Shown here: positions 25,796-29,030 of the stretch, piece after piece
Layout: the number at the start of each line of letters is the position of its first letter
How positions within the stretch are numbered: position 1 is the first letter of the stretch
Assembly: GCA_030427465.1 (NCBI GenBank)
Contig: JAUIAZ010000007.1
Span: 1-32,395 of the forward strand
Direction of reading: 5' to 3'
Length of the DNA: 32,395 nt
From: Gammaproteobacteria bacterium
GTDB lineage: Bacteria > Pseudomonadota > Gammaproteobacteria > Pseudomonadales > Oleiphilaceae
Translations under genes and position numbers: made by a program
Notes under the pieces: generated by a model
What the model was told of the DNA's origin: nothing
The model's input: the letters and a program-made list of their open reading frames with translations, nothing else
Database searches by the model: none

Positions 25796-26701
25796 CTAGT
25801 TGAAGCGGGCAATATACTTCGACAGCGACGCCATTTTATCCGGGTCCTCATCCACGAAACGAATGATGATCTGTACAAAATCGGTATCTATACGTTTATC
25901 CACGGCTTTCAGGCTGTGGACATAGCCGTTGATGCGCTCCAGTACCTCTTCTTCATCCACTTCGATATCAATAACCGCCGGATCCAGAATCATCGGGAAC
26001 TGCTGGCCACGGCGGGCCACGACCTGCACTTCATTCAGGGAAATGGCCTTGATAACACAAGGCAGGGAAAAGTCGGCAAAACGGACTTTCGCCATCCCTT
26101 TGAGGGGCGCACCTGTGCTTCCGGACCCCTGGCTCTGGGCTGATCTGGCCGCCGGATTGGCAGACGTTCCCGCGGCAGGCTTTCCCGTCAGCAGATCTGC
26201 CGTAGATGCCGTTGCTATGGGAGCAGAGGGGGCCGGTGCTGCCCCCTTGGCTTTTGCAGAGGCCCCTGTCAGAAGGGCCGCACTGTCTCCGCCAAAACCT
26301 CCTGATCCGCTGGTTTTTGCCTTCAGTTGCCCGCCCATTGCCTTGGTCACTTTCTGGACCAGCATTTCGGCATTGAAAGGCTTGCCAAGGTAGTCGGTCA
26401 CCCCCTGCTGGGCGGCTTCCACCACATGCCCGCGGTCTCCCCGGCTGGTAACCATCACGAATGGCACTTTTTTGTAATGTTCGGTTGACCGGACCCACTG
26501 CAGAAGCTCCAGGCCGCTCATTTCCGGCATTTCCCAGTCACACAGAATCAGATCAAAACGCTGCTTGCTCAGCAGTAACTGAGCCTTGCGGCCATTGACC
26601 GCTTCTTCCACCTGAACCTGCGGGAACTGCGCCCGCATGGTTCGCTTGACCAGATCCCTGACAAAGGTGGCGTCATCCACCACGAGGACTTTCAATGCCA
26701 T
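25796..26701 (-). CDS. CheY-like REC domain protein with long low-complexity linker and PilZ-like C-terminal region
   Basis: MALKVLVVDDATFVRDLVKRTM...LILCDWEMPEMSGLELLQWV; Ala/Gly/Ser-rich linker; C-terminal FADFSLPCVIKAISLNEVQVVARRGQQFPMILDPAVIDIEV. Confidence 0.88.
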   Translation of the reverse strand: MALKVLVVDDATFVRDLVKRTMRAQFPQVQVEEAVNGRKAQLLLSKQRFDLILCDWEMPEMSGLELLQWVRSTEHYKKVPFVMVTSRGDRGHVVEAAQQGVTDYLGKPFNAEMLVQKVTKAMGGQLKAKTSGSGGFGGDSAALLTGASAKAKGAAPAPSAPIATASTADLLTGKPAAGTSANPAARSAQSQGSGSTGAPLKGMAKVRFADFSLPCVIKAISLNEVQVVARRGQQFPMILDPAVIDIEVDEEEVLERINGYVHSLKAVDKRIDTDFVQIIIRFVDEDPDKMASLSKYIARFN

Positions 26702-27549: not shown

Positions 27550-27930
27550 ATGCCCCAGGCCACAGAACAATCCCTGCTGAAAAAATGGCAGGGCCCCCTC
27601 GGCAGATACAGCCTGCTGACCCTGTTTGCCGGAATTCTGCTCGTGGCGCTGCTGCCAAGCGAGAACCTGCCGCAGACGCAACACCTCACGGACAAATGGC
27701 AGCACGGGCTGGCCTTCTTCAGTCTGACACTGATGTTGGGTCTTCACAGACCGCAGTGGCAGGGAGGCCTGCTGCTCCTGATGATGGCGGGCTATGGACT
27801 GCTGATGGAGGGCCTGCAGGGCTTGAGTGGCTATCGTCTGGCTGAATGGGGCGACCTTCTGGCTGATATGCTCGGTACACTGGTCGGGCTCTTTGTGCGC
27901 TTTGTCATACGGAAGCGATACCTGTTGTAA
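27550..27930 (+). CDS. VanZ-like family membrane protein
   Basis: LPQTQHLTDKWQHGLAFFSLTLMLGL...LMEGLQGLSGYRLAEWGDLLADMLGTLVG, VanZ-like signature. Confidence 0.85.
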   Translation: MPQATEQSLLKKWQGPLGRYSLLTLFAGILLVALLPSENLPQTQHLTDKWQHGLAFFSLTLMLGLHRPQWQGGLLLLMMAGYGLLMEGLQGLSGYRLAEWGDLLADMLGTLVGLFVRFVIRKRYLL

Positions 27931-27944
27931 GAAATCTCTTACAA
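27925..27944 (+). promoter_or_regulatory. GacA/UvrY-type upstream activating palindrome TTGTAAG-AAATCT-CTTACAA
   Basis: Exact match to TGTAAG-N6-CTTACA with perfect 7-bp arms; overlaps the vanZ stop codon; upstream of a GGA-repeat small RNA. Confidence 0.85.
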
Positions 27945-28100
27945 GACCTTAGGACATATCGGAAATATCACGTCAGCAAGCAGGTCGAATTTATCCGAAA
28001 AAATCATAAGCAACTGAAATATAATAACTATATCGAAAAGGCCCACAGCGACCCAGTGTTACCGTTCGGAACACCCTCCCCTCTTTTTCGTCGAAATCAG

Positions 28101-28106
28101 TACAAT
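28101..28106 (+). promoter_or_regulatory. Candidate -10 element TACAAT for the small RNA
   Basis: TACAAT just before the first GGA-rich segment; no good -35, consistent with an activator-dependent promoter. TATAAT at 28020-28025 is an alternative. Confidence 0.45.
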
Positions 28107-28111
28107 GGGAA

Positions 28112-28302
28112 CCATGGACGAAACGGAAAGGACGACTGCAAGGACGTTATCTCGACAGGATGTTCGAGGGAAGCAAGGACTTACGGAAGCGGCTTGAGGG
28201 ATTTTTCTAAAGGATTTAGTGGAGACAGGGAGTCTTCAATCAGGGAAGACTGAACAGGGATTGTCCAGACATGAAAAGGCGCCAGGAAGGCGCCTTTTTT
28301 TT
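28112..28302 (+). ncRNA. CsrB/RsmZ-type CsrA(RsmA)-sequestering small RNA (5' end uncertain)
   Basis: 16 GGA motifs between 28108 and 28287. Hairpins presenting GGA/AGG: CTCGA-CAGGATGT-TCGAG, CTAAA-GGA-TTTAG, AGTCTTC-AATCAGG-GAAGACT. Terminator AAAAGGCGCC-AGGAA-GGCGCCTTTTTTTT. GacA-type palindrome upstream. No plausible conserved ORF. Confidence 0.88.
28274..28302 (+). terminator. Intrinsic terminator of the small RNA, probably bidirectional
   Basis: AAAAGGCGCC-AGGAA-GGCGCCTTTT plus further Ts: 10-bp perfect stem, 8-T tract; the A-tract on the left arm makes it usable from the minus strand. Confidence 0.9.
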
Positions 28303-28340
28303 GTCTTTCTTCTTTTTTGTCTTTCTTCGTGTCCCTCCGT

Positions 28341-29030
28341 TCAGCCCGCCTCGCCTGAACGGTAAAGACGAACCTGTCTGAACTCTGCCAGTTCACCCAG
28401 ATCTGGCCAGGTTATTGCCTCACCCTGCCCCCAAAGCCTATACCCCGGTTCCTCGAGGTTCCGCACCCGGGAATCTGCCAGCCAGACTTCAGCAGCCAGA
28501 CCTCTGAACTGCTGCAGGAGCGGACGATTGTCCGCGTCATACAGAATGTCTGCGGCGGTAACCAGATCAAACCCTCCCTGTGCCGGGAGTTCCCGCTGCC
28601 AGTCTACCTGGACACCCATCGCTGCGGCATTCGCTGCGATGGCCAGGCCTGCACCAGAGTCGCAGTCACAGGCGACAACTTCAGCAGCCCCAACCATTGC
28701 TGCGGCGATGGCCACCACGCCGGAGCCGGAGCCGACATCCAGCACACGACGACCACTCACCTGGTCCGCGTTATCCAGAATCCATCGTGCCAGCACCTGG
28801 CCACTGGCCCAGCAGAAACTCCAGTATGCCGGCTCAGCGACCGCTGCCTGGGCTTCCTCATGGGTCAGGGGCTCACTCATGCTGAGTGGATCGACCAGCA
28901 TCAGAGAAATTTCCGGCACCAGCGGCAGTGGCTGCAGGGAAAGTTTCCGGCCCGGCAAGCCCTGCCAGAAATACGCCTGCAATTTGTCTGTGAGGGAAAA
29001 AGAATGGTCTTTTGCCGTTAAATTATCCAC
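28341..29030 (-). CDS. Class I SAM-dependent methyltransferase, ETFB-lysine/PrmA-like
   Basis: GRRVLDVGSGSGVVAIAAAMVGAAEVVACDCDSGAGLAIAANAAAMGV...FDLVTAADILYDADNRPLL. Confidence 0.88.
   Translation of the reverse strand: MDNLTAKDHSFSLTDKLQAYFWQGLPGRKLSLQPLPLVPEISLMLVDPLSMSEPLTHEEAQAAVAEPAYWSFCWASGQVLARWILDNADQVSGRRVLDVGSGSGVVAIAAAMVGAAEVVACDCDSGAGLAIAANAAAMGVQVDWQRELPAQGGFDLVTAADILYDADNRPLLQQFRGLAAEVWLADSRVRNLEEPGYRLWGQGEAITWPDLGELAEFRQVRLYRSGEAG

Follow-up and report, generated by a model that had tools for sequence, protein, structure and literature searches.

Among the described systems, the csrB and csrC genes are those at which phosphorylated UvrY footprints an 18-nt repeat located far upstream, IHF being required at csrB and not at csrC (PMC4682653). 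In P. aeruginosa, the sites of GacA are found at −196 at rsmZ and at −75 at rsmY, and in P. protegens the A+T region of rsmZ is bound by IHF (PMC4950607). The arrangement identified in the window, namely, the entire stretch of 32,395 nucleotides that was analysed, is by analogy of the rsmZ/csrB type. It shares with rsmZ of P. aeruginosa and P. protegens a distal upstream activating sequence (UAS; about 196 bp upstream in P. aeruginosa), an A+T-rich linker, which carries IHF sites in P. protegens and a degenerate IHF-like site in the window, and a GGA-rich RNA of the kind that binds CsrA/RsmA (PMC4950607), but differs from it in the vanZ/methyltransferase neighbourhood, in the lack of an Rfam sequence match, in the family-specific centre of the palindrome, and in that the UAS is also the vanZ stop codon. 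With csrB of E. coli and Salmonella, which depends on BarA–UvrY and on IHF, it has in common a far-upstream 18-nt inverted repeat and, across the family but with two mismatches in the window, an IHF site before the promoter (PMC4682653), whereas the RNA is shorter here and unrelated in sequence (14.2 bits with Rfam CsrB RF00018 in the window, the gathering threshold of 71 not being reached).

The RNAs CsrB1/CsrB2 of Shewanella oneidensis and CsrB/CsrC of Marinomonas mediterranea were likewise predicted via a GacA box and AGGA/ARGGA motifs; their expression was shown to depend on a system of the BarA/UvrY type (PMC3171408, PMC8523701), whereas the RNA considered here is predicted from sequence and conservation. 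According to the evaluation of the locus and of its relatives, the palindrome is very probably a distal UvrY/GacA activating site which, with an IHF bend, would serve a CsrA-titrating sRNA at 28113–28306.

Palindrome and predicted GGA-rich RNA in the window

The features of the locus are given in Table 1. The palindrome had been described in the first-pass annotation as an exact match to TGTAAG-N6-CTTACA, and this was confirmed for both 6-base arms of the core 18-mer TGTAAGAAATCTCTTACA (27926–27943), with the pairing of the arms reaching the 20-mer given in the table. The coordinates in that annotation were all correct, including those of the elements TACAAT (28101–28106) and TATAAT (28020–28025). 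Judged by base composition, the expected number of exact occurrences of TGTAAG-N6-CTTACA is 0.0009 for the window and 0.11 for the genome. The genome scan for further sites that had been proposed revealed no other exact one in the 3.96 Mb assembly; palindromes with one mismatch occurred five times elsewhere in the genome, and no GGA-rich RNA was found beside these five.

Table 1. Features of the palindrome–RNA locus in the window
Feature	Position	Strand	Basis or remark
vanZ-like gene	27550..27930	+	NCBIfam NF037970, 24.5 bits (cut-off 20)
UvrY/GacA upstream activating sequence (predicted), TTGTAAG-AAATCT-CTTACAA	27925..27944	.	Exact consensus and 89 related loci
Degenerate IHF-like site TAAGCAACTGAAA, compared with YAANNNNTTGATW	28007..28019	+	2 mismatches
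A/T tract with TATAAT, adjoining the IHF-like site	28020..28035	+	Not conserved as −10
−10 element TACAAT	28101..28106	+	Alignment of 89 loci
CsrB/RsmZ-like RNA (predicted)	28113..28306	+	Start inferred from the −10 element
Rho-independent terminator, 11-bp stem, AGGA in the loop	28273..28305	+	Terminator scan
PrmA-like methyltransferase gene, convergent with the RNA, synteny anchor	28341..29030	−	Pfam PrmA/Methyltransf_16

The predicted RNA contained 15 GGA motifs in 193 nt, against an expectation of about 6 from composition and a maximum of 12 among 1000 shuffles, and was the spot of the window most densely occupied by GGA on either strand (16 per 194 nt, the next best having 11). The ANGGA form was present 12 times. 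In the modelled structure, five motifs would be unpaired with P > 0.8, hairpin loops accounting for three or more of these, and the GGA of the terminator loop had P(unpaired) = 1.00. The fold was better than that of 199 of 200 dinucleotide shuffles (z = −2.85).

A search of the window at the gathering and relaxed thresholds of Rfam revealed no match to CsrB, RsmY or RsmZ, and no Rfam family was matched in 14 related loci. The covariance model R1, which was built for the family, gave 63.5 bits (E = 1e-10) for the window RNA and 71–90 bits for its relatives; the 5′ end of the window RNA deviates from the family consensus and is, together with the IHF-like site, among the less typical ones of the family. 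In the genome of the window, R1 recognised this locus only (other matches, E ≥ 1.8), and in a 195-genome sample of the order, searched with strict filters, it detected the RNA in each of the eight genomes of the family, the other 187 yielding no match. Alignment of 35 RNA 5′ domains revealed a stem that has covarying base pairs (C-G/U-A, A-U/G-C) and displays AGGA in its loop. Since the matches of R1 in this sample were limited to the family, the RNA is a family-specific Csr/Rsm member by predicted function, not by detectable homology to CsrB/RsmZ. It appears to be a previously unannotated member of the Csr/Rsm class that is not recognised by Rfam, the mechanism itself being already known from rsmZ and csrB. 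It is likely the Csr/Rsm antagonist RNA of a family of common marine bacteria, among them Marinobacter, Hahella and Halospina, for which Rfam recognises no such RNA. Full-text literature searches revealed no report on GacA and sRNA in Marinobacter or Hahella; the RNA may nevertheless have been predicted computationally before in these two genera.

Conservation of the locus and layout of the promoter region

The vanZ gene was dropped as a synteny anchor, being too divergent, and the methyltransferase gene was taken instead. The latter was matched in 120 of 121 family genomes, and the 98 with a long orthologous match were the genomes examined; its named carriers included many Marinobacter, as well as Hahella, Halospina, Halovibrio, Tamilnaduibacter and Mangrovitalea. 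The anchor followed by the palindrome and a GGA-rich RNA was found in 89 of these 98 genomes, a count that leaves out at least one genome (G025) whose palindrome falls beyond the search range. At the anchor, the arrangement was missing in seven genomes of the Oleiphilus-like genera g3 and g4. The form of the palindrome typical of the family, TGTrnGAnATnTCnyACA, fixes bases in the usual N6 as well; it was detected in 110 of the 121 genomes, mostly once or twice in each (once in the genome of the window), against 3 matches in total for the reversed-pattern control. Perfect palindromes were also present elsewhere in the order, where some precede short GGA-rich stretches (L024, L025 and L027) and most do not. 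When the locus was compared with 58 relatives by BLASTN, a self-match only was returned; therefore, DNA similarity alone fails to reveal the conservation of the locus. The mean pairwise identity was about 0.4 in the linker parts, whereas it reached 0.82 in the palindrome and 0.71 at the 5′ end of the RNA.

The palindrome is located 175 bp upstream of the −10 element of the GGA-rich RNA in the window, and the distance between the starts of these two elements was 174–176 bp in 81 of the 89 loci; it should be noted that the −10 elements of the relatives were placed by multiple alignment, and the spacings may look slightly too regular. At the aligned position, the −10 element was TATAGT in 57 of the 89 relatives. 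A promoter scan of the window found no −35 element or sigma-70 pair for the −10 element at 28101, and the absence of an apparent −35 is consistent with an activator-dependent promoter. The TATAAT at 28020 had been put forward as an alternative −10 element that would centre the palindrome at about −98. This option was dropped, because only the element at 28101 was conserved among the relatives, and TATAAT is probably not a promoter element. The centre of about −178 that had been proposed for a start near 28113 held, with the start placed about 12 bases past the first base of the conserved −10 element.

The linker, previously called AT-rich, was moderately so (57% AT vs. 42% window-wide), with a maximum of 71% in 27991–28045. 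Of the 89 loci, 70 have a match to the IHF consensus at 60–64 bp downstream of the palindrome; 12 of these matches are exact, 32 contain one mismatch and 26 contain two. The dinucleotide-shuffle expectation was 0.2 exact and 6.4 one-mismatch sites for the best match anywhere in the linker. The A/T tract of the window sits in an AT-rich block downstream of the IHF-like site, as in the relatives. The looping by a DNA-bending protein that the first-pass annotation had suggested is favoured by the family-wide conservation of the IHF site and of the distance, the site of the window itself being weak. Approximately 90 promoters with a fixed distance and IHF position and a drifting sequence represent a natural data set, and the looping model of rsmZ/csrB thereby becomes testable by comparison and by spacing mutants.

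Immediately downstream of the palindrome, a further block resembling a half-site (GT..GA..tT) was conserved across the family. In the window, this degenerate half-site (GTRRGANAT-like) is located at 27949–27965; it is possibly a second UvrY contact.

The vanZ stop codon inside the palindrome

The vanZ-like ORF, in addition to its NCBIfam match, scored 29.7 bits with Pfam PF04892, marginally below the cut-off of 30.1. Its TAA stop codon (27928–27930) falls within the left arm of the palindrome. Among the 89 family loci, vanZ was located upstream of the palindrome in 79 and was absent from ten. The vanZ stop codon coincided with positions 3–5 of the palindrome in 38 loci belonging to genera g1, g12, g14 and g16 (TGA in 31, TAA in four and TAG in three), and in fourteen other loci it was found 21 bp before that position. 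The 5′ arm supplies the stop codon because TGTRRG contains TRR (TAA, TGA, TAG) in one frame; therefore, any ORF entering in that frame must terminate there. The overlap is thus genuine and recurrent, and no special mechanism is required for it. Since vanZ terminates within the palindrome in 38 genomes, which represent four genera, the earlier claim of a single DNA segment doing both coding-end and regulatory work appears to be well founded. Five g9 genomes and others are devoid of vanZ and retain the palindrome, the spacing and the RNA, so that the regulatory role of the palindrome would be independent of vanZ.

It may be speculated, with considerable reserve, that the locus combines a rigid UvrY–IHF–polymerase layout of fixed length with a vanZ stop codon locked, in a large subset of genomes, into the UvrY site, and that transcription or translation of vanZ entering the site could modulate its occupancy by UvrY. 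If this were true, vanZ expression would be coupled to the Csr switch.

Regulators, proposed mechanism and rival readings

A GacS/GacA (BarA/UvrY) cascade had been implied from the palindrome, with the absence of a gacA/uvrY homologue named as the finding that would speak against it. The regulators are present in the genome: a response regulator of the UvrY/SirA/GacA type is encoded at C106:21925–22569 (305 bits vs. the NCBIfam equivalog cut-off of 280), and CsrA/RsmA is present in a single copy (89 bits vs. 27). BarA/GacS was found in two pieces, comprising residues 4–354 at the end of contig C281 and residues 314–889 at the start of contig C486, each of which alone was below the cut-off. The ends of these contigs share 127 bp, and therefore the BarA/GacS gene spans an assembly break.

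The analysis showed directly that the sequence elements and the regulators are present, and that the elements and their distances are conserved; that the RNA is transcribed, UvrY binds, IHF bends the DNA and CsrA is titrated are steps that we infer from the sequences. BarA/GacS would drive the phosphorylation of UvrY/GacA, which in the phosphorylated form would bind the palindrome at about −178. IHF would bend the linker at approximately 28007–28035, and the bend would bring UvrY to the RNA polymerase at the −10 element, which has no recognisable −35. The RNA would then titrate CsrA via its GGA motifs, while the 5′ arm of the palindrome also provides the vanZ stop codon. The interpretation offered in the first-pass annotation, including the looping and the dual use, appears to be largely right.

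The linker allows another reading, according to which UvrY acts distally and the AT-rich segment is mainly a silencer under a protein of the H-NS/MvaT type, IHF being dispensable. The weakness of the IHF-like site in the window agrees with this, as does the dispensability of IHF at E. coli csrC (PMC4682653); however, the exact and one-mismatch IHF sites at a constant offset, together with the constant length between the palindrome and the promoter, speak for a bend whose position is fixed, and the silencer is considered unlikely. As for the palindrome, its overlap with the vanZ stop codon and the 7-bp hairpin that is possible in the vanZ mRNA could be taken to mean a hairpin or terminator at the 3′ end of vanZ, or the site of another regulator, with a match to the GacA box by chance. 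Against this, the terminator scan scored none at the palindrome and no T-run follows it, the vanZ-less loci of the g9 genomes and others keep the whole arrangement, and the number of exact matches expected by chance in 160 upstream positions is about 4e-6, which leaves this explanation highly improbable. Scarcely any credence is given to the GGA-rich stretch being a short coding gene and not a non-coding RNA: an open frame of 65 aa does exist at 28056–28253, but it begins upstream of the conserved −10 element, and the homologous RNAs vary in length by non-multiples of three (88–102 nt for the same segment) and retain both GGA and the covarying stem. The distal UvrY/GacA site with an IHF bend is therefore the preferred reading.

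Several observations were made at other loci. A second GGA-rich RNA was detected in Marinobacter (approximately 1500–2000 of each of the loci L272, L277, L278, L280, L281, L287, L290 and L291); it has a UvrY-type palindrome of its own and directly precedes a comEA-like gene of the helix-hairpin-helix type. This RNA shares with that of the window the family-form palindrome and a GTCA-GGA-TGAC-like start of the GGA-rich RNA, but differs in that its palindrome is located about 61 bp from the −10 element and no IHF linker is present, as in rsmY/csrC, of which it is likely the counterpart. In locus L294 of the Hahella-like genome G036 (C1:1596429–1596755), two family-form palindromes are located about 310 bp apart, each followed by a reverse-strand GGA-rich stretch and a terminator-like hairpin; this arrangement probably represents two Csr-type RNAs in tandem. 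Similar spacing of palindromes was found in genomes G018, G024 and G030. Genome G065 of genus g5 contained 23 exact family-form palindromes, compared with 1–7 elsewhere, which suggests a much enlarged UvrY regulon or a repeat family. Finally, a response-regulator receiver, the C-terminal part of which had no Pfam match, is encoded in the window at 25796–26701 on the minus strand, and its homologue adjoins the palindrome in the g9 locus L022, where vanZ and cysZ are absent.
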